From: an uncultured Burkholderiales bacterium
Lineage (GTDB): Bacteria; Pseudomonadota; Gammaproteobacteria; Burkholderiales; Burkholderiaceae_C
Assembly: GCA_902825995.1 (NCBI GenBank)
Contig: CADEDE010000012.1
Span: forward strand, 1-47,797
Direction: 5' to 3'
Length of the DNA stretch: 47,797 nucleotides
Within the stretch, counting starts at the first letter, position 1. Every line of letters begins with the position of its first letter. The position numbers and the translations under genes are program-made. The notes beneath the pieces were generated by a model. That model did no database searches, had not been told where the DNA came from, and saw only the letters and a program-made list of their open reading frames with translations. Positions 2,583-12,757 of the stretch are shown piece by piece.

Positions 2583-3617
2583 ATGAATGCAATCGTCCGA
2601 GCCATCGACGTTGGCTTCGGCTACACCAAGTACACGACGGGCGGGACTGCCGCTGACATCCGCTGCGCCAGCTTCCCGTCACTCGCCTGCCTCAGCACGC
2701 GCGACCCGTCGGCATCGCTGGGCGCGGAACGCCGGCGAACGTTTGCGATCCCGATCAAGGGCGTCTTCTACGAGGTCGGGCCGGATGTCGTGCTGGCGGG
2801 CGACGGATTCCGCGCAACGCAGATCCACCATCGCTACATCGACACGCCCGAGTACCTGGCGCTGGCGCGCGGGGCGATGCGCTCGATGAAGGTGGAACAC
2901 ATCGACCTGCTGGTGGTCGGCCTGCCCGTGGCGACGTTTGCCACCGACAAGGGCGCGCTCGAAAAGCTGATGACCGGCAGGCACGACTTGGGAGGCGGCA
3001 AGACGGTCCAAGTGCGCAAGGCGCTGGCCATGGCTCAGCCGCACGGCGCGCTGATCGACTATGCGGATCAGCACGACCGCGTGCTCGCCATGCAGGACGA
3101 ACAAAGCCTGGTCGTCGACCCGGGCTCGCGCACCTTCGACTGGTTGGTGGCGCGCGGTATGAGGCTGTCGCACAAGCGGAGCCATTCGGTCGACCGCGGG
3201 GTGGCGGACATCCTGAACCTCATCGCGGACGACGTGAGCGTGGAGATCGGTTCCGCCTATACGAGCCTGGACAGCATCGACCGCGCGCTGCGGACCGGCA
3301 AGGCGCTGACCGTGTACCAGAAGACCTATCAGCTTTCGCGGATGAGGCCGATGGTCGAGAGCATCGCCCGGCAGGCCGTCGCGGCCATGATGCGGCGCAT
3401 CGGGCCCGCCTACGACGTGCGCAACGTGATCCTCGTCGGCGGCGGTGCGTTCCTGTTCCGCAAGGCGGTCAAGCAGGCGTTCGCATCGCATGAGGTGCTG
3501 GAGGTCAAGGAACCGATGTTCGCCAACGTGCGCGGTTATCAGATCGCAGGTTCCAACTATGTGGCCGCGGCCACACAGGGAGCAGGCGTTGTAGCGGCGG
3601 AAGGGGGCAGGGCATGA
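2583..3617 (+). CDS. ParM/StbA-like actin-fold ATPase
   Basis: A 344-residue protein of the actin/ParM/StbA superfamily, which polymerise with ATP and move or stabilise plasmid and ICE DNA. The ATG at 2583 has AGGAG about 6 bases upstream. The phosphate-1 loop is AIDVGFGYTKY near the N-terminus, phosphate-2 is VDPGSRTFDW at about 178-187 and the adenosine motif is LVGGGAFLF at about 282-290, all in the usual spacing. The length fits ParM (about 320-350). It overlaps the next gene by ATGA, as parM and its adaptor usually do. It also resembles the actin-like protein D of PRTRC-type cassettes, but no ParB- or ThiF-like partner is in view. Role in element maintenance is inferred from family and context. 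Confidence 0.85.
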   Translation: MNAIVRAIDVGFGYTKYTTGGTAADIRCASFPSLACLSTRDPSASLGAERRRTFAIPIKGVFYEVGPDVVLAGDGFRATQIHHRYIDTPEYLALARGAMRSMKVEHIDLLVVGLPVATFATDKGALEKLMTGRHDLGGGKTVQVRKALAMAQPHGALIDYADQHDRVLAMQDEQSLVVDPGSRTFDWLVARGMRLSHKRSHSVDRGVADILNLIADDVSVEIGSAYTSLDSIDRALRTGKALTVYQKTYQLSRMRPMVESIARQAVAAMMRRIGPAYDVRNVILVGGGAFLFRKAVKQAFASHEVLEVKEPMFANVRGYQIAGSNYVAAATQGAGVVAAEGGRA

Positions 3618-3913
3618 GCACGGTCGACACGAAGGTGGATCACAGCATCAGGCTGCTCTTCGAGTTGTCGCGCGACGACAACCCACGGCTGTTCGACGAC
3701 CTGATGCGATTCAACAAGGGGCCCAAGCGCGTCAACCGGCTGCGGTTCCTCGCCCATGAAGGCCTGCTGGCGCAGCAGTGGCTTCCTGGCATGACCGTTG
3801 CGGTGCCGATGGCGGCCGCGCCAAAGGCGCTGCCGCATGTCGGCGTGGATCCAGCAGTGGCGCGCCAGACAGGCCAGGCGTTCGAGGTCAGCAACGGTGG
3901 AGCGGAGGATTGA
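3614..3913 (+). CDS. Small protein coupled to the ParM-like ATPase, candidate adaptor
   Basis: A 99-residue protein starting inside the stop of the ParM-like gene (ATGA). Residues about 10-50 are helix-forming and basic (RLLFELSRDDNPRLF, then KRVNRLRFLAHEGLL), reminiscent of the short ribbon-helix-helix ParR/StbB adaptors that join the actin filament to DNA. The second half is Ala/Pro-rich and probably disordered. No family is recognised with confidence; the adaptor role rests on position, size and operon coupling. It overlaps the next ATG by one base (TGATG). Confidence 0.55.
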   Translation: MSTVDTKVDHSIRLLFELSRDDNPRLFDDLMRFNKGPKRVNRLRFLAHEGLLAQQWLPGMTVAVPMAAAPKALPHVGVDPAVARQTGQAFEVSNGGAED

Positions 3914-4371
3914 TGCGGCGCCGGCGCAAGGCGAAGCGCGCGGTCAGCGCGTCAGCGTTGTCGCAGATGGGCGTCTGCGAACGGCTGGTCGTGTTCGAAC
4001 ACCACGAGGGAAAGCAGCCGACACCCGCGCAGAAGGTAGCCCTGCAACGCGGGCTGAGGGCGCATCGGCGGTTCGCGTCCGAAGGTGCGTCGGAAGCAGC
4101 GCGAAGGGGGCGCTGCTTCATCGCCACGCATGTCTTTGGTGAAGGACCAGAGACGCAAGTCTTGCGGCGTTTTCGGGATCGGTACCTCCGACCCACGCGT
4201 GCAGGACGGCACATGATTCTCGTGTACTACCAACTGGCGCCGACCGTGTGCCGCGCGATGGAGCGGTGGCCGATGACGCGGTCCGCGGCGAGGGCGGCGA
4301 TCAGGCCGTTGGTTTGGTACGCCACCCGTCGTCTGCTCGCCGATCAGGATGCAAGCGATGTCAGCGGTTGA
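3913..4371 (+). CDS. Cas4-like nuclease N-terminal half fused to a CFI-box C-terminal domain
   Basis: A 152-residue protein starting one base inside the previous stop. Residues 12-58 look like the opening of a RecB/Cas4-family nuclease: an SASALS entry, Cys22 in CERLVVFE, which sits where the first cluster cysteine of Cas4 lies, and a helix ending in RGLRAHRRF with His51 in place of the motif-I histidine. Residues 67-145 are a CFI-box-CTERM domain: the CFIAT motif at 68-72, then TQVLRRFRDRYL and a hydrophobic helical tail. The usual motif II/III residues of the nuclease are absent here but present in the next gene, so the two may assemble into one enzyme. The domain calls are motif-based; the pairing is inference. 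Confidence 0.55.
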   Translation: MRRRRKAKRAVSASALSQMGVCERLVVFEHHEGKQPTPAQKVALQRGLRAHRRFASEGASEAARRGRCFIATHVFGEGPETQVLRRFRDRYLRPTRAGRHMILVYYQLAPTVCRAMERWPMTRSAARAAIRPLVWYATRRLLADQDASDVSG

Positions 4372-6284: not shown

Positions 6285-6743
6285 TCAGCTCTTCTTGCTC
6301 GCCCGCGCGTAGGCATCCATGCCGCCACGCGCCTTCCACTCGTTGAAGCCGCCGTACAACAGGCGCACGTTCTCGAAGCCGTCCATGCGCAGCGCCATCG
6401 CCACCTGTGCTGCAAACGAACTGGTGTTGCAGTAGACGAGGATGGTCTTGTCCTTGGGCAGCTTGGCGCGTTGCGCAAAGACTTGACGCCATTCGATGTT
6501 CGAGGCGCCGGGCACATGCTCCTTGGCGAACTGGCCCGCATCACGCACATCGAGCACGAAGAACTTCCTGTAGTCCTCGGCCGGAATCTGCTCGGGCAGG
6601 ATCGTGCCGGCGTTGGCGTCGACGAAGTCGAAGTAGCCCTCGATCGCGTTGACGGTGGCCTTGTCGGCCTGGGCCTGCGCGGCCATGGGCAGACAAGCCG
6701 CGGCGGCCAGCGCAACGGTCAGTGCCAGTCGAAGTCGGAACAT
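6285..6743 (-). CDS. Periplasmic single-domain rhodanese
   Basis: A 152-residue sulphurtransferase. ATG 6743 follows a GGAG site, and residues 1-25 are a Sec signal peptide ending in AQA. The rhodanese fold shows the CH2A-type FFVLDVRDAGQF at about 61-72 and an active loop VYCNTSSF with Cys105 as the persulphide-bearing residue, then the closing GGFNEWKARG. Family members move sulphane sulphur between donors and thiol acceptors. The exported location suggests work on periplasmic sulphur species or on an exported partner. It belongs to the leftward operon, 52 bp after the GH84-type gene. Substrate unknown. Confidence 0.88.
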   Translation of the reverse strand: MFRLRLALTVALAAAACLPMAAQAQADKATVNAIEGYFDFVDANAGTILPEQIPAEDYRKFFVLDVRDAGQFAKEHVPGASNIEWRQVFAQRAKLPKDKTILVYCNTSSFAAQVAMALRMDGFENVRLLYGGFNEWKARGGMDAYARASKKS

Positions 6744-6795
6744 GGAGGTCTCCAGGGGTTGTGATTCTTTGATGCGTGCCGGTCGGGCTTGGCCA

Positions 6796-7872
6796 TCAGG
6801 CCTCTTCGACCCAACTGTCCACCGTGTCGGCACCGTCCAGCCAGCGCACCACTTCGGCGGCCATGGGATGGTTCACGGCGAGGTAGCGCTGGCGCAAACG
6901 CTGGCGTTCGTCGCCCAGCCGATCGAGCCCCAGGTCCTGCAGGGCGTGCAGGTCTTCTTCGAGCATCGGCGCGAGTTCGTCACCCGCCAAGGCGCGTGCG
7001 GCTGCGCGGAAGGCGCGCATGTAGGCATAGGCCGGACCTTCCCGGTAGCTGGCTACCAGCGTGGCGGCGGGGATCAGGCTCAGTTGCGGCTGCATTGCCG
7101 GGTTGATGGCATGCGCCGTCAGGTGGGTTCCGATCGCACTCGGGCGCCCTGTGAAGCCGCGCAGGTGCAGGAAGCGCGACATCTGCGGCCCGTCGTTGAC
7201 CGGGTAGTTGTCCCACAGCGTCGGTTTGCGCCGCAGCGACTCGGCCACGCGCGCGAGGTGGCCGGGACTGAACTCGCGGGCGCAGATCTCTTCGCCCGTC
7301 CAATAGACACCGACACGGGGATCGAGCCTGCGCCCGAGCTCGTCGAGGTAGCCCGACGGGCGCTGACCGAAGACGAGATCCAGCATCCTGTCGTCGGAAT
7401 AGTAGGTCGGACACATCACGACCCGGCTGGCGCGGGTGGTGGCCAGCGCGGTATGCACGATCTCGGCCTCCCGTGCCGCCAGGTCCGGCACATCGCCGCG
7501 TGTGTCGTCGAAGAGGATCGCGAGTTCGTCGATGCCGATCTCGTCGAGCGCCCGGAGCTTGGCGACGAAGTCCGCCTTTGCGGCACCGGTGTCCTCGCGG
7601 TACAGCTCGTAGGGGCTCAGCCCGATGCCGAAGCGCATGCCCAGGTTGCGGCAATGCGCCGACAGATCGGCCAGTTCGGCGAAGGCGGCCGGCGGGTGCG
7701 GCTCGCGCCAGCGTCGCCGCAGGAAAGCGTCCGCCTTCGGCGCGTGGTGGAACCATGCGTAGCCCAGTTCGCGCAGCTGCGTCAGCACGCGCTTGCGATC
7801 CTCGTGGCGCCACGGCTTGCCGAAGTAGCCCTCGATGACACCCAGCTCTGGAACCATGTCGGCGGCGTTCAT
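6796..7872 (-). CDS. GH84-type beta-N-acetylglucosaminidase domain protein
   Basis: A 358-residue protein of the GH84/O-GlcNAcase catalytic-domain family. The opening GVIEGYFGKPW (11-21) is the family signature (usually GFYGRPW), and FDDTRGD at 121-127 supplies the catalytic Asp122-Asp123 pair that drives substrate-assisted hydrolysis of N-acetylglucosaminides. Further family-like motifs are PTYYSDD, YWTGEEI and LWDNYPVND. No signal peptide is seen, so it should be cytoplasmic, unlike secreted toxin-associated GH84 enzymes. It starts 3 bp after the stop of the DsrE-like gene, so translation is probably coupled. Hydrolysis of GlcNAc-containing thiol conjugates would fit the context but is speculation. 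Confidence 0.8.
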   Translation of the reverse strand: MNAADMVPELGVIEGYFGKPWRHEDRKRVLTQLRELGYAWFHHAPKADAFLRRRWREPHPPAAFAELADLSAHCRNLGMRFGIGLSPYELYREDTGAAKADFVAKLRALDEIGIDELAILFDDTRGDVPDLAAREAEIVHTALATTRASRVVMCPTYYSDDRMLDLVFGQRPSGYLDELGRRLDPRVGVYWTGEEICAREFSPGHLARVAESLRRKPTLWDNYPVNDGPQMSRFLHLRGFTGRPSAIGTHLTAHAINPAMQPQLSLIPAATLVASYREGPAYAYMRAFRAAARALAGDELAPMLEEDLHALQDLGLDRLGDERQRLRQRYLAVNHPMAAEVVRWLDGADTVDSWVEEA

Positions 7873-7875
7873 GGT

Positions 7876-8226
7876 CTAGAAGACGAGAACCTTGTCGGCT
7901 TCGACGGTCCAGTCGGCCAGCTGGGCCAGGGTGCTGCGACGGGCGCCTTCGATGACCTCGTCCTCGCGCAGGCCGCGCGCGTCCATGCAGGTGCCACACA
8001 GCGCCACCTCGCCCTTGCGCAGCACCTTGCCGAGCATCAACTGCAGGTTGTAGTAGCCCTCGGGCACCTTCTGGCCGCTCTTGGCGCAGGCCACCGCGTC
8101 GGCCATCAGGAACAGCCGGACCTGCTGGTCGTCCTTGCCCGCCACCGTGGCCGCCAAGCGGAGCGCGTTGTAGGTGCGTTCGTTCCCATAAGGAGCGTCG
8201 TTGAGGATGAACAGGGTGGAGGCCAT
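7876..8226 (-). CDS. DsrE/DsrF-family sulphur-relay protein
   Basis: A 116-residue soluble protein of the DsrE/DsrF/YchN fold. It has the N-terminal FILNDAPYG strand-loop, the AVACAKSGQ helix and the conserved LCGTCMDARG motif with two cysteines, the usual sulphur-carrying site. Members such as DsrE2 and TusD pass persulphide sulphur between rhodanese-like and acceptor proteins in the cytoplasm. It lies 30 bp after the ArsR-rhodanese gene and 3 bp before the GH84-type gene, inside one operon. The length is that of the single-domain family. Direct partners are probably the rhodanese domains nearby; that is inference. Confidence 0.88.
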   Translation of the reverse strand: MASTLFILNDAPYGNERTYNALRLAATVAGKDDQQVRLFLMADAVACAKSGQKVPEGYYNLQLMLGKVLRKGEVALCGTCMDARGLREDEVIEGARRSTLAQLADWTVEADKVLVF

Positions 8227-8256
8227 GACGGTTCCTGGGTTGTTCAGGGATTTGTC

Positions 8257-8919
8257 TCAGGCACGTTGGACCGGCAGGCCCGCGGCCTGCCATTCGCTGA
8301 CGCCATCGAAAGTCTTGCGGGCGCGGAAGCCGCGTGCCTGCAGCAGCTTCACCGCCTCGTCGGACATCAGACAGAACGGGCCGCGGCAGTAGGCGACGAT
8401 CTCGACGTCCCGCGGCAGTTCGGCCAGACGTTGCGCCAACTCGGGTAGCGGCATCGATCGCGCGTAGGGCAGGTGGGCGGTGTCGAACTCCTCCTGCGGG
8501 CGCACGTCGAGCACGAGCACGTCGCCGCGCTTGGCCTGTGCGAGCAGTTCCTTGCGGCCGACACTGGCCAGCCGGTCGGGCTCGGCCATCATCTGCTGCA
8601 GCGCCAGACGCAGTTCCAGCAGGTGCTCCTCGGCCACCTGGCGGAGCGTCACGCCGAGGTGCGCCACGTCCTTGCCGCTCAGGCGGTAGACCATGCGCTT
8701 GCCCTCGCGGCGGCTCTGCACCAGTCTCGCTTCCTTCAACGCCTTCAGGTGTGCACTGGCGAGCTTGACGTCGATGCCGACCTCGGCGGCCACGGTCTCG
8801 ACCGCTTTCTCACCCTGCGCCAGCATCTCCAGCATCTCCAGCCGCTTCGGGCTGGCCAGGGCTTTGCCCACACGGGCGACCTGTTCGTACAGAAGGTCCT
8901 TGAGTGTTCGGTTGTCCAT
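8257..8919 (-). CDS. ArsR-family repressor fused to a rhodanese domain
   Basis: A 220-residue regulator. Residues about 10-95 form an ArsR/SmtB winged helix (SPKRLEMLEML, ASAHLKALKEARLV, then the wing REGKRMVYRL). Residues about 118-220 form a rhodanese domain (VLVLDVRPQEEF) with the active loop YCRGPFC. The only two cysteines are Cys178 and Cys183, both in that loop; the ArsR part has none, so metal sensing of the classical kind is unlikely and persulphide or tetrasulphide formation in the loop is a plausible signal. ATG 8919 is used; ATG 8928 (three residues longer) lies in the -10. It heads the leftward operon and faces the desaturase operon across a 22-bp palindrome, so it probably represses both. 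Confidence 0.9.
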   Translation of the reverse strand: MDNRTLKDLLYEQVARVGKALASPKRLEMLEMLAQGEKAVETVAAEVGIDVKLASAHLKALKEARLVQSRREGKRMVYRLSGKDVAHLGVTLRQVAEEHLLELRLALQQMMAEPDRLASVGRKELLAQAKRGDVLVLDVRPQEEFDTAHLPYARSMPLPELAQRLAELPRDVEIVAYCRGPFCLMSDEAVKLLQARGFRARKTFDGVSEWQAAGLPVQRA

Positions 8920-8925
8920 GGTGTA

Positions 8926-8947
8926 CATTCTAACGGTCGTTGGTATG
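8926..8947. promoter_or_regulatory. Imperfect 22-bp palindrome, probable operator of the ArsR-rhodanese regulator
   Basis: The bases CATtCtAACGgtCGTTgGtATG form a dyad in which eight of ten positions per half match, centred at 8936/8937. It covers the -10 and most of the spacer of the regulator's own promoter and lies 53 bp before the divergent desaturase start, a position from which one repressor could control both operons. No second copy was noticed elsewhere in the window. Confidence 0.6.
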
Positions 8948-8956
8948 AAAGGTAAA
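8927..8956 (-). promoter_or_regulatory. Sigma70-like promoter of the leftward sulphur operon, probably leaderless
   Basis: Reading leftward, TTTACC (8951-8956) is a weak -35 and TAGAAT (8927-8932) a good -10, 18 bp apart. Transcription would begin about seven bases on, at or next to the A of the ATG at 8919. There is no Shine-Dalgarno before that ATG, which agrees with a leaderless message. Confidence 0.5.
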
Positions 8957-8999
8957 GAGCCTGTCTGCCACGTCAGCACCTGAACCCGGGGAGACAGCC

Positions 9000-9875
9000 A
9001 TGGATCTCGAACAATTCGTCCTTGCCCACGAACCTGCCATCCGGCTGGGCTTCTTCGTGGGTGTCTTCGCGATCGTGGCGCTGTGGGAGTTGGCTGCACC
9101 GCGCCGCGCGCTGACGGTGTCCAAGGCCTTGCGCTGGGGCAGCAACCTCGGCCTGGTCGCGCTGAACACGCTCGTGCTGCGGCTCATGTTTCCGCTGGCG
9201 GCGGTCGGCGTGGCCGCGTTCGGCGTGGCCAACGGCTGGGGCCTGCTAAACCACTTCGAGGTGCCGTTCTGGCTGGCCGTGCCGGTGGCGGTGATCGCGA
9301 TGGACTTCGTCATCTGGCTTCAGCATGTGATGGTGCACGCCGTGCCGGCGCTGTGGCGGCTGCACCAGGTGCATCACGCCGACCTGGACTATGACCTGAC
9401 CACCGGCGCACGCTTCCACCCGATCGAAATCGCACTGTCGATGCTGATCAAGTTCGCCACCATCACCGTGCTTGGGCCGCCGGTGCTGGCCGTGGTGATC
9501 TTCGAGGTGCTGCTCAACGCCACCGCGATGTTCAACCACGGCAACATCCGCCTGCCCGCCGGGGTGGACCGGGTGCTGAGGTGGTTCGTCGTCACGCCGG
9601 ACATGCACCGCGTGCACCACTCGGTGGAAGACGACGAGACCAACTCCAACTTCGGTTTCAACCTGCCCTGGTGGGACAGGCTGTTCGGCACCTATCGTGC
9701 GCAACCGCGCGCCGGGCATGACGCCATCGTGATCGGCATCCACGGCCATACCGACCCACACGAGGTGGCGCGCCTGGACGGCATGCTTTTGATGCCGTTC
9801 AAGGGCCAGGTCGACGGCTATGCGATCAACCGTCGCTACTGGTCGAGTGAAGGGTCCGGAGAGAGCGCCTCGTGA
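9000..9875 (+). CDS. Sterol desaturase / fatty-acid hydroxylase-family membrane oxygenase
   Basis: A 291-residue integral membrane di-iron enzyme candidate. It has about four hydrophobic helices before and between the histidine boxes: HVMVH (109-113), HQVHH (122-126), FNH (180) and HRVHH (203-207), the eight-plus histidine pattern of the family. Members hydroxylate or desaturate lipids with O2. GGGGAGA lies just before the ATG. It leads the rightward operon, divergent from the ArsR-rhodanese gene, and overlaps the next gene by four bases. The substrate is unknown; in this context lipid or hopanoid modification under sulphur stress is possible. Family call is firm. Confidence 0.87.
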   Translation: MDLEQFVLAHEPAIRLGFFVGVFAIVALWELAAPRRALTVSKALRWGSNLGLVALNTLVLRLMFPLAAVGVAAFGVANGWGLLNHFEVPFWLAVPVAVIAMDFVIWLQHVMVHAVPALWRLHQVHHADLDYDLTTGARFHPIEIALSMLIKFATITVLGPPVLAVVIFEVLLNATAMFNHGNIRLPAGVDRVLRWFVVTPDMHRVHHSVEDDETNSNFGFNLPWWDRLFGTYRAQPRAGHDAIVIGIHGHTDPHEVARLDGMLLMPFKGQVDGYAINRRYWSSEGSGESAS

Positions 9876-10843
9876 TGAACCGGACCGCACTGCGCTGGGT
9901 GTTGGGCCTGGTATTGCTGGCGGCCGTCGGCGTCGCGCTGACGCAGCGTGGACGCTTCGATGCGGCAACGCTGCAGACTTGGGTCGAAGGTGCGGGCGCG
10001 GCGGGGCCCTTGCTGTTCATGGGCCTCTACGCGGTGGCCACCGTGCTGTTCCTGCCGGGTGCCGTCATCACGCTGGCCGGCGGTGCCTTGTTCGGACCGC
10101 TTTGGGGCACGCTGTGGAACCTGACCGGTGCGACCGTGGGCGCCGCGCTGGCCTTCCTCATCGCCCGCCACCTCGGCGCGGACTGGGTGGCGCGTCGCGC
10201 AGGCCCGCGCCTGCAACGGCTGAACGAGGGTGTGGCGTCCGAAGGCTGGCGCTTCGTCGCCTTCGTGCGGCTGGTGCCGCTGTTCCCCTTCAACCTGCTG
10301 AACTACGCGCTGGGCCTGACCCGCATCTCGTTCATCACCTACCTGCTCGCCACCTGGGTCTTCATGCTGCCCGGCGCCTTCGCGTACTCCTGGCTCGGCC
10401 ATGCCGGGCGTGAAGCGCTGTCGGGTGCCGATGGCCTGGTGCGCAACGTCACCATCGCGCTGTCGCTGCTGGCGGCCGTGGCGCTGTTGCCGAGGCTGGT
10501 GCGCAAACTGCGGGCAAAGCCAATGCTGGAGGTGCTCGACCTGAAGCGGGAACTCGACGCGGGCGAGGATGTGCTGCTGCTGGACGTGCGCGCGCCGGCC
10601 GAGTTCAGCGGCGACCTGGGACACATCGCTCAAGCGCAGAACGTTCCGCTGAAAGAGTTGCCCGGACGGCTGTCGCGCTTCGAGGATCGCAAGCAGCGAC
10701 CTGTGCGCCTGATCTGCCGCACCGACCGGCGCTCGGTGCAGGCAGCGCGCTTGCTCGCCGAAGCAGGCTTCAGCAAGGTCCAGGTCGTCCGGGGCGGAAT
10801 GACCGCCTGGCGCGGCCACGGATGGGCCGTCGTGGGCGCCTGA
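9872..10843 (+). CDS. TVP38/TMEM64 (VTT-domain) membrane protein fused to a rhodanese
   Basis: A 323-residue fusion. After an N-terminal helix (10-24), residues about 45-210 form a VTT/DedA-like membrane domain: the LPGAVITLAGGALFGP segment, RLVPLFPFNLLNYALG and further helices. Residues about 218-323 form a cytoplasmic rhodanese domain (VLLLDVRAPAEF, loop LICRTDRRS with Cys282, final RGGMTAWRGHGW). The ATG lies in the ATGA overlap with the desaturase gene; ATG 9875 is possible. VTT proteins move phospholipids or small solutes; coupling to a sulphurtransferase suggests transport or processing of a sulphur compound at the membrane, which is inference. Confidence 0.88.
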   Translation: MMNRTALRWVLGLVLLAAVGVALTQRGRFDAATLQTWVEGAGAAGPLLFMGLYAVATVLFLPGAVITLAGGALFGPLWGTLWNLTGATVGAALAFLIARHLGADWVARRAGPRLQRLNEGVASEGWRFVAFVRLVPLFPFNLLNYALGLTRISFITYLLATWVFMLPGAFAYSWLGHAGREALSGADGLVRNVTIALSLLAAVALLPRLVRKLRAKPMLEVLDLKRELDAGEDVLLLDVRAPAEFSGDLGHIAQAQNVPLKELPGRLSRFEDRKQRPVRLICRTDRRSVQAARLLAEAGFSKVQVVRGGMTAWRGHGWAVVGA

Positions 10844-10844
10844 A

Positions 10845-11618
10845 ATGCACAGCGCGATGAAAACCGAATCGATGTCGAAGCGGCCCAAACCCTTGTCCAT
10901 GCCCGCGCTGTGGGGCTTGCTGCTCGGCCTGGCAGCGGTGGCCACCATCGTCGCCTCCGGCATCGGCTACCGGCTCGGCTGGTGGCACTTCTTGCGCGGC
11001 CTGCAGGCCTCCGAATGGGCGACCTATGGTGCCGGTGTCGCGCTCGTCCTGTCCGGGTTCGGCCTGATCCAGACCCGTCCCCGTGCGGCGCGGGGCGGAC
11101 GGGCCATGGCCATCCTCGGGCTGCTGATCGCACTGTTTCCGCTGGCGATGGCCCTGCAGTGGGAAGTTGCCAGCCGCACCACGCCGCCCATCAACGACAT
11201 CAGCACCGACACCGCCGATGCCCCGGTGTTCTGGGACATGCCCAACCCGACCGACTACCCAGGCGCCAAGACGGCCGCTCTGCAGCGTGCAGCCTATCCC
11301 GATCTGACATCGTTGAAACTCGGTCTGACGCCGGAACAGGCGTTCGCGCAGGCCTTGTCGGTGGCCCAGGCGAAGGGCTGGACCATCGTCGCCAGCGTAC
11401 CTGCCGAGGGCCGGATCGAGGCAACCACCAGCAGCCTGCTGTACGGCTTCACCGACGAGGTGATCGTCAGGGTCAAGGCAGCGGAAGGCGGCGCCCTGGT
11501 GGATGTACGTTCCCGGTCACGCCTGGGTCGTGTCGACCGGGGCGTGAACGCCAGGCGCATCCGCGCCTACCTCGCTGCCCTGCAGGAGCGCGCGGCGGCC
11601 AACGATCCGCAGCCATGA
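10845..11618 (+). CDS. DUF1499-family membrane protein
   Basis: A protein of up to 257 residues starting just after the TVP38-rhodanese stop; in-frame ATGs at 10857 and 10872 are alternatives because no strong ribosome site is seen. Three transmembrane helices (about 22-42, 58-75 and 85-105) precede a soluble DUF1499 domain with the FWDMPNPTDYPG region, a duplicated beta pattern (GWTIVASVPAEGRIEAT) and the closing VDVRSRSRLGRVDRGVNARRI-type segment. The function of DUF1499 is not known. It overlaps the cysteine desulfurase by four bases, so it is in the same operon. Confidence 0.8.
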   Translation: MHSAMKTESMSKRPKPLSMPALWGLLLGLAAVATIVASGIGYRLGWWHFLRGLQASEWATYGAGVALVLSGFGLIQTRPRAARGGRAMAILGLLIALFPLAMALQWEVASRTTPPINDISTDTADAPVFWDMPNPTDYPGAKTAALQRAAYPDLTSLKLGLTPEQAFAQALSVAQAKGWTIVASVPAEGRIEATTSSLLYGFTDEVIVRVKAAEGGALVDVRSRSRLGRVDRGVNARRIRAYLAALQERAAANDPQP

Positions 11619-12757
11619 CCGATCCAATCTACCTCGACCACAACGCCACCACCCCGGTTGCGCCGGAAGTGCTGGACGCGATGCTGCCGTGGCTGCGTGG
11701 TGAGTACGGCAACCCGTCCAGCACCCACCCCTACGGCCAGCGCGCCGCGCGGGCCGTGGCCACGGCCAGGGGCCAAGTGGCCGACCTCATTGGCGCAGAC
11801 GCGCGGGACATCGTCTTCACCGGCTGCGCGACCGAGGCGAACAACCTGGCGCTGCTGGGCGTGGCACACGCGCTCGGGACCGGGAAGCGCCACTTGGTGG
11901 TCAGTGCGGTCGAACATCCGGCGGTGATGGCCCCAGCGCTTGAGTTGCACGATCAGGGGTGGGCGCTGACGGTCCTGCCCGTCGACACGTTCGGCCGGAT
12001 CTCCCCCGACCAACTGGCGAACGCCTTGAGGCCCGACACGGCACTGGTTTCGGTCATGCATGCCAACAACGAGGTGGGCACGTTGCAGCCGATCGCAGAG
12101 ATCGCCGAGATCACGCGCCCGCGCGGCATCATGCTGCACACGGACGCCGCGCAGTCGGTCGGCAAACTGCCCGTCAATGTCGACGCACTCGGCGTGGACC
12201 TCTTGACCCTCGCTGGGCACAAGTTCAGTGCCCCGAAGGGCGTCGGCGCCTTGTACATCCGCACCGGGACGCCCATCCGATCCATTCTCCACGGCGCGGA
12301 CCAGGAGCATGGCCTGCGGCCTGGCACCGAGAACGCGGCCCTGATCGTCGCGATGGGCGCTGCGGCCGCGTTGGCCGCGGCGGCTCTGCCAGGCCTGTCT
12401 GATCGGCTGCGTTCGCTGCGCGACCGGCTGCACGCACAACTCGAGGCCGGTGTGCCCGCACTTCGCCTCAACGGCGATCCGGAACGCCGGTTGCCGAACA
12501 CCTTGCACGTCTCGTTCCCCGGCGTCAGCGGTCGCGCCCTGCTCGCGGCAGTGTCCGACACGGTGGCCGCGTCGGTCGGCTCGGCCTGCCACTCGGAGCA
12601 GGACGCGGTCAGCGGTGTGCTGGCCGCGATGGGGTTCGGTGCGGCACGCGCGAGCGGCGCGGTTCGGCTGTCGGTCGGGCGCGTGACCCAGCCCGAGGAC
12701 ATCGACATTGCCGCAGCAGCGCTCGTGGCCGCGTGGCGCCGCCTGACGGGTGCATGA
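11615..12757 (+). CDS. Cysteine desulfurase (NifS/IscS-like, class V aminotransferase)
   Basis: A 380-residue PLP enzyme that takes sulphur from cysteine, giving alanine and an enzyme persulphide. The start is in an ATGA overlap. Motifs are YLDHNATTP (6-13), EHPAV with PLP-stacking His101, HTDAAQ, the Schiff-base Lys203 in LAGHKFSAPKG and the catalytic Cys325 in SVGSACHSEQDAVSG. The length fits the family. It is not beside iscU or suf genes, so it probably feeds persulphide to the rhodaneses and DsrE-like protein of this locus, not general cluster assembly. It closes the rightward operon. Confidence 0.92.
   Translation: MTDPIYLDHNATTPVAPEVLDAMLPWLRGEYGNPSSTHPYGQRAARAVATARGQVADLIGADARDIVFTGCATEANNLALLGVAHALGTGKRHLVVSAVEHPAVMAPALELHDQGWALTVLPVDTFGRISPDQLANALRPDTALVSVMHANNEVGTLQPIAEIAEITRPRGIMLHTDAAQSVGKLPVNVDALGVDLLTLAGHKFSAPKGVGALYIRTGTPIRSILHGADQEHGLRPGTENAALIVAMGAAAALAAAALPGLSDRLRSLRDRLHAQLEAGVPALRLNGDPERRLPNTLHVSFPGVSGRALLAAVSDTVAASVGSACHSEQDAVSGVLAAMGFGAARASGAVRLSVGRVTQPEDIDIAAAALVAAWRRLTGA

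Follow-up and report, generated by a model that had tools for sequence, protein, structure and literature searches.

The regulator encoded at positions 8257 to 8919 is a fusion of an ArsR winged helix with a rhodanese. It is preceded by a palindrome that is conserved among its homologs, overlaps its own predicted leaderless promoter, and recurs at two places between DsrE and fatty-acid-hydroxylase genes. The only two cysteines of the protein lie in the rhodanese loop CRGPFC. We consider it fairly probable that a dimeric ArsR repressor occupies this operator and that sulfane sulfur at the loop cysteines relieves the repression. The window is the whole stretch of DNA analyzed, 47,797 nucleotides from an uncultured Burkholderiales bacterium (contig CADEDE010000012.1). 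The regulator and its control region comprise the following features.

8257 to 8919, minus strand: regulator of 220 aa (counted from the ATG at 8919) in which an ArsR winged helix is joined to a rhodanese (translation and Pfam domains)
8926 to 8947: dyad CATACCAACGACCGTTAGAATG, 22 bp, 8 of 11 arm pairs complementary
8927 to 8946, no strand assigned: putative operator core ATACCAACGACCGTTAGAAT, 20 bp, from homolog conservation; family consensus ATTCNAACGNNCGTTAGAAT
8927 to 8932, minus strand: predicted -10 hexamer TAGAAT, the right arm of the operator, from a sigma-70-like match and the homolog columns
8950 to 8956, minus strand: predicted -35 region, either TTTACC (8951 to 8956, 18-bp spacer) or TTACCT (8950 to 8955, 17-bp spacer)

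Domain architecture and start codon

Domain membership was assessed with profile models. HTH_5 scored 40.5 bits (cut-off 22) over residues 26-72 and the rhodanese model PF00581 47.6 bits (cut-off 22.2) over residues 126-215, both numbered from an alternative in-frame ATG at 8928. NF033788 (metalloregulator ArsR/SmtB) scored 76 against a cut-off of 55, a model whose scope is the whole ArsR/SmtB class and which names no ligand. With HTH_5 and the ArsR metalloregulator model over cut-off, the protein belongs to the ArsR/SmtB winged-helix proteins. Its rhodanese part, which scores over the PF00581 cut-off and has the catalytic cysteine in its loop, belongs to the rhodanese domains and may act as a sulfurtransferase.

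The ATG at 8919 is the likely start, because in six homologs (L020, L022-L025, and L055) the codon equivalent to ATG 8928 runs straight into a stop. The numbering Cys178 and Cys183 used in the earlier note therefore stands (181 and 186 when counted from ATG 8928).

An AlphaFold model built on 44 sequences had a mean pLDDT of 93.5. In Foldseek, the ArsR part was best matched by 3gw2 and 2kko, which both represent residues 1-100 of M. bovis Mb0332. The rhodanese part matched numerous rhodaneses, one of them fused to a persulfide dioxygenase. Among the Foldseek and VIA-align matches listed, no solved structure of a full-length fusion was present, the Mb0332 1-100 fragment being the only representative.

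Cysteines of the rhodanese loop

Read from ATG 8919, residues 1-177 contain no cysteine, and C178 and C183 are the only cysteines of the protein. An alignment of 44 sequences, picked for diversity from 81 (the window and 80 homologous loci), showed C178 in 44/44 rows and C183 in 43/44, and the domain order and the C-x4-C loop were common to the aligned homologs. L067 (5001-5633) has CRGPFG, with glycine for the second loop cysteine, and retains an operator-like site. Both loop cysteines were also found in 29/29 homologs from further genera, as CRGPFC, CRGPYC, or CRGPHC. The ArsR part was free of cysteine in 37/44 homologs; in four of the 7 rows with a cysteine there, it stood at position 34. 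The earlier note had described a fusion with a cysteine-free winged helix and a cysteine pair confined to the rhodanese loop, and this description was upheld for the window; the loop pair, moreover, is family-wide.

Loop position 6 was then compared with other rhodanese domains of the own genome and six related genomes. Thirty loci were taken from 67 places, one of them being a paralog of the regulator; 18 of the 29 remaining loci gave 20 readable domains and 11 gave none, which makes this a small control. The loops were read both by HMM and directly from the sequence. Position 6 was cysteine in 0/20 of these domains and arginine in 14/20. Unlike the 20 controls, the paralog has a cysteine at this position. 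Thus, the second loop cysteine looks like a signature of the ArsR-rhodanese family, not of rhodaneses generally, as far as these sequences tell. A sensing role for C183 is proposed mainly because the position-6 cysteine is specific to the family.

The paralog (L002; contig 30 of the own genome, 20778-21428) is 59% identical to the regulator and has an extra cysteine at the residue-34 position. An MFS transporter gene lies downstream of it.

Conserved palindrome upstream of the regulator

The dyad was not significant by itself: when the window is cut into 477 tiles of 100 nt, 63% contain an equally good best dyad, and its significance as a single dyad was rejected on this count. Because the dyad alone proves nothing, 80 homologous loci were fetched and their upstream DNA was compared. 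A site matching ATTCTAACGNNCGTTAGAAT at at least 12 of 18 positions was present in 67/81 sequences, the window included; in the other 14/81, no upstream site reached 12 of 18 matches. After the mis-registered L063 was left out, 48 distinct sites were available for a dyad count. Their true centre paired 335/480 positions (70%), and 24 slid centres paired 17-46%.

The left arm ATTC/AA was conserved among homologs, the best-conserved half was the -10, and the bases upstream of the -35 showed almost no conservation. No covariation of the arms was detected in these sites, as within-column shuffling of one arm reached the observed pairing in 427/1000 trials. The symmetry is therefore that of the column consensus.

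A second set of 29 loci outside the own genome, each from another genus and unused in building the motif, was examined against shuffled sequences. The best upstream site beat all 100 shuffles in 18/29 loci and was reached by at most 9/100 shuffles in 27/29. The two failures were L194 (site reached by 90/100 shuffles) and L177 (26/100). Many sites of this set were near-perfect palindromes of the form ATTCAATNNATCAATTGAAT. Judged by its conservation among homologs, the dyad is real.

With up to 3 mismatches, the operator pattern occurred at one site in the window (expected 0.03). In the own genome, the same search found 4 places against 1 for a reversed control, and only the place at the regulator had fewer than 3 mismatches; a large regulon in this genome was rejected on these counts. 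Across the 80 loci (727,762 bases scanned), 63 sites lay at regulators and 5 hits elsewhere, in three places (L023, L070, and L087), with 0 hits in shuffles. At L070, the site is flanked by the regulator gene and a divergent DsrE gene; neither this place nor that at L087:4439-4458 is an orphan site in a gap between DsrE and hydroxylase genes.

In ten other genomes, at most 1 mismatch was allowed. Thirty-five places were found against 7 control places, and 9 of them stood before one of 11 regulator genes. Among the 26 non-regulator places, one was examined and is an orphan operator (see below). Further operator targets may exist among the other 25.

Sites resembling ATTCAAACGNNCGTTTGAAT were also collected from other Burkholderiales (L202-L218). 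The ten proteins examined beside nine such sites included three TetR_C_30 proteins, one ETF protein, one diacylglycerol kinase, and five without a family. TetR_C_30 regulators stand at three of the nine sites. We take such sites as probably belonging to a TetR-type regulator and not to the ArsR-rhodanese family.

Promoter and leaderless start

TTTACC-18-TAGAAT was the sole sigma-70-like match in positions 8150-9100 (mean of 0.1 in shuffles). Column conservation among the homologs moves the -35 one base nearer, to TTACCT with a 17-bp spacer. Near homologs favored T at -9 (40/67), T at -8 (52/67), and C at -5 (51/67) before the site. The transcription start predicted from this promoter coincides with the ATG at 8919.

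An in-frame start codon followed the end of the -10 by 6-8 nt in 62/67 loci. Shine-Dalgarno-like tetramers were counted after leaving out 8/66 homolog rows in which the start was not at codon 4 or the site was mis-registered; they were found before 0/58 regulators versus 26/32 DsrE genes in these loci. The paralog has the same layout, with GTG 6 nt after TAGAAT. Because of this spacing, the lack of Shine-Dalgarno-like tetramers, and the layout of the paralog, a leaderless start of the regulator is well supported by sequence in this clade. In distant homologs, the site was usually farther from the start, with a distance of 6-8 nt in just 4/29, and the leaderless layout is therefore not family-wide.

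The earlier note had placed a 22-bp dyad over the -10 and spacer of a promoter starting at the ATG, and had suggested a search for the same palindrome upstream of other arsR-rhodanese genes. The homolog comparison confirmed the dyad, which was present in 67/81 sequences, and the predicted start point held up against the start-codon spacing and the Shine-Dalgarno count.

Gene neighborhood and orphan operators

The operator core lies in an 80-bp gap between the regulator and a divergent operon that begins with a fatty-acid hydroxylase gene. The neighboring genes of the window are as follows.

6285 to 6833, minus strand: rhodanese with a putative N-terminal signal peptide, judged by eye (Pfam Rhodanese, 3.6e-19)
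6796 to 7872, minus strand: beta-N-acetylglucosaminidase-like protein (NAGidase; Pfam)
7876 to 8226, minus strand: DsrE-family protein (sulfurtransferase-like), next downstream of the regulator (Pfam DsrE, 4e-22)
9000 to 9875, plus strand: divergent protein of the fatty-acid-hydroxylase / sterol-desaturase family, separated by 53 bp from the operator core
9872 to 10843, plus strand: fusion of a VTT membrane domain with a rhodanese (Pfam)
11600 to 12757, plus strand: aminotransferase class-V protein (Pfam Aminotran_5, 1.1e-73); the likely Met lies a few codons inside the stretch

We take the class-V protein to be cysteine-desulfurase-like from its motifs. Three rhodanese domains lie within 4.6 kb, in the regulator, in 6285-6833, and in the VTT fusion at 9872-10843. 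In many of the nearer loci, too, a NAGidase-like gene comes after DsrE.

The regulator is placed among sulfur genes in the window, with DsrE and rhodaneses around it, and in many but not all homologous loci. DsrE occurred anywhere in 45/80 loci and directly downstream of the regulator in 34/75, a fatty-acid hydroxylase was the divergent neighbor in 35/78, and a stretch homologous to 11600-12757 was found in 19/80. Of nine named plasmid loci, 4 contained DsrE, 5 an MBL-fold hydrolase, and 7 an MFS transporter; in a Methylocystis plasmid locus, a neighbor is annotated as cysteine desulfurase. No sulfur gene was found among the neighbors of L145 and L150. Copper genes were located near L064 (CopD) and near L146 and L147 (Cu P-type ATPase; CopC), and merA in one plasmid locus (L144). 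Arsenic-resistance genes were absent among the neighbors examined (window, selected homologous loci, and the nine plasmid loci), and no peroxide-defense family was named among the neighbors examined.

Two orphan operators were found between divergent DsrE and fatty-acid-hydroxylase genes without a regulator gene between them.

L200:3856-3875 (contig C20 of genome G015): 20-bp core identical to that of the window
L023:6369-6388: core one base off that of the window, approximately 700 bp from the end of a regulator gene

At the G015 site, DsrE is 90% and the hydroxylase 87% identical to the proteins of the window. The 8-kb stretch of this contig gave no tblastn match to the regulator, and the sole match in G015 (the genome of L033) at E <= 1e-40 lies on another contig, C1. 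G015 is a 7.3-Mb contig set of unknown quality in which mis-binning is possible; L023 has both arrangements on one contig. At both sites, the core was kept (0 and 1 base different) while the flanks differ from the window. The TAGAAT half faces DsrE, the -35 is not kept, and the ATG of the regulator reads ACG. The operator thus appears, from its position at these sites, to control neighboring genes too and not the regulator alone. DsrE at 7876-8226 is the probable main target.

Distribution in genomes and plasmids

The family was carried by 41/143 genomes of the class at E <= 1e-40; in a sample of 300 genomes of the order, 70 had it at E <= 1e-60. Cultured Rubrivivax rivuli KYPY4 has two copies (L012 and L039). 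More than 80% of the regulator query was matched in 204 plasmid records, and 26 of the 30 listed are named 'metalloregulator ArsR/SmtB family transcription factor'. A full-length match was absent in three of the four other genomes of the genus, and 0/8 listed same-family genomes of other genera had a regulator match at E <= 1e-60. This patchy presence suggests gain and loss or transfer. In the Roseibium plasmid L146, from an alphaproteobacterium, the divergent sterol-desaturase and VTT neighbors recur (3074-3922 and 2072-2833). Judged from this recurrence, the block of regulator, sterol-desaturase, and VTT genes is either old or mobile.

Proposed mechanism and alternatives

In the proposed mechanism, the regulator would act as a dimeric ArsR-type repressor on the 20-bp ATTCNAACGNNCGTTAGAAT-like palindrome at 8927-8946. 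This palindrome spans the -10 hexamer and the greater part of the spacer in the predicted leaderless promoter, so that its occupation would block RNA polymerase. The operator itself is supported by the sequence comparisons, and we infer dimerization and repression from ArsR biology. Control would reach the regulator, DsrE, and the genes behind DsrE, and would probably extend to the divergent fatty-acid-hydroxylase, VTT-rhodanese, and cysteine-desulfurase-like genes. Taken together, the operator and its orphan copies suggest a regulon of few genes: regulator, DsrE, and fatty-acid hydroxylase.

The signal would be sulfane sulfur, with the catalytic rhodanese Cys178 as the presumed acceptor of a persulfide. 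Cys183, at the position where arginine often closes the loop, would act as the resolving residue and give a disulfide or a short bridge of sulfur. The altered loop would then weaken DNA affinity, and the sulfur-trafficking genes would be switched on. Reset might follow by reduction or by sulfur transfer, perhaps to DsrE. A tetrasulfide between the two residues, as in the earlier note, is an analogy, because C178 and C183 are five residues apart and the pairs of YgaV, HlyU, and sHdrR more than 60. A cysteine persulfide, a trisulfide, or a disulfide formed after attack on the persulfide should be at least as likely. The more specific reading, in which a working rhodanese is itself the sensor, Cys178 is loaded by DsrE or a low-molecular persulfide, the family-specific Cys183 locks the loaded state as a bridge, and the loop, not the winged helix, switches DNA binding, is possible, and we give it somewhat less than even credence.

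The rhodanese could instead be an enzyme or a sulfur-relay partner of DsrE, with DsrE binding, or a different ligand acting on the ArsR dimer, as the trigger for DNA release. This would suit the occurrence of DsrE in 45/80 loci and at the orphan operators, and also the short CX4 loop with its catalytic cysteine. However, plain sulfur transfer has no need of a position-6 cysteine, which is near-invariant here and was found in 0/20 domains elsewhere, and the covalent fusion to a repressor favors direct control. We regard such a relay as unlikely.

A thiol-oxidant sensor, in which peroxide or general thiol stress would join C178 to C183 by an ordinary disulfide and sulfane sulfur is one of several oxidants, is a distinctly weaker candidate. 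Two close loop cysteines in a protein with no other cysteine would allow it, but the recurring neighbors are sulfur-transfer genes, with no peroxide-defense family named among those examined. In addition, HlyU, an ArsR persulfide sensor, is reported to be unreactive to peroxide.

Sensing of a metal or arsenite, in which the loop cysteines would bind As(III), Cu(I), or Hg(II), is what the automatic name 'metalloregulator ArsR/SmtB' would imply, and we consider it very improbable. On its side are the NF033788 score, three loci with copper genes nearby, and a plasmid locus with merA. That model names no ligand, however, and arsenic-resistance genes were lacking among the neighbors examined. The cysteine ligands of metal- or arsenite-sensing ArsR proteins are absent from the winged helix (residues 1-177), a comparison that covers cysteine ligands, and the loop has the short spacing that one paper ties to sulfur or selenium, not to arsenic or phosphorus.

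That the palindrome is nothing more than a -10 element, symmetric by accident, is hardly credible: comparable dyads are common, the -10 is the best-conserved half, and the arms do not covary, but a promoter spacer has no need of the conserved left arm ATTC/AA, and near-perfect palindromes stand away from the start in other genera and orphan copies before DsrE.

Comparison with known systems

The fusion architecture is already known and is common in named records. For the ArsR-rhodanese family, the operator, the leaderless start, and the loop signature are described here. In the open-licence PMC literature, no function or sensed signal was found for ArsR-rhodanese fusions; a paper on ChrB mentions that rhodanese-like domains are found in ArsR.

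The closest solved structures to the ArsR part are those of the Mb0332 fragment 1-100 (3gw2 and 2kko). Rv0324 of Mycobacterium is presumably orthologous to Mb0332 and presumably carries a rhodanese, and it is taken here as a relative of the regulator. The Rv0324 papers examined concern drug response, networks, and CRISPR promoters, and neither sulfur sensing nor a defined operator was found in them. An EMSA showed binding of Rv0324 to the promoter of its own gene (PMC9953421).

CstR has another regulator fold than ArsR. CstR systems with CstA-CstB, and PDO-rhodanese (Blh) systems, have similar targets (rhodanese, MBL-fold hydrolase, and TauE-type exporter), whereas here the candidate sensor is the rhodanese itself.

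BigR, SqrR, YgaV, SoxR, sHdrR, and HlyU share the ArsR winged helix with the regulator. These persulfide-sensing ArsR regulators are mostly repressors of sulfur genes, HlyU being an activator, and rhodanese, persulfide dioxygenase, and transporter genes are their targets or neighbors, likewise here. The site deduced for SqrR is ATTC-N8-GAAT, compared with ATTC-N12-GAAT in the present operator, and both are AT-edged palindromes. The paired cysteines lie 63-67 residues apart in three of them (YgaV C31/C98, HlyU C38/C101, and sHdrR C50/C116). The pair described here lies in the fused rhodanese loop, five residues apart, with none in the winged helix. The score against the BigR equivalog NF040642 was 48.9 (cut-off 155), and BigR-like helix cysteines are absent from the regulator, with no cysteine before 178, and from 37/44 homologs. 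Because both the model score and the helix cysteines fail, the regulator is not a BigR, though it may work like one.

The persulfide-sensing ArsR proteins compared here use paired cysteines of the winged-helix protein; the widespread ArsR-rhodanese family mostly lacks such a pair and has a C-x4-C rhodanese loop instead. If this loop is the sensor, a catalytic sulfur-transfer site has become a transcription switch, and many genes labeled 'metalloregulator' would be sulfur sensors. Persulfide sensing would then have arisen twice, independently, in the ArsR superfamily, here in a rhodanese loop coupled to a leaderless autoregulated promoter.
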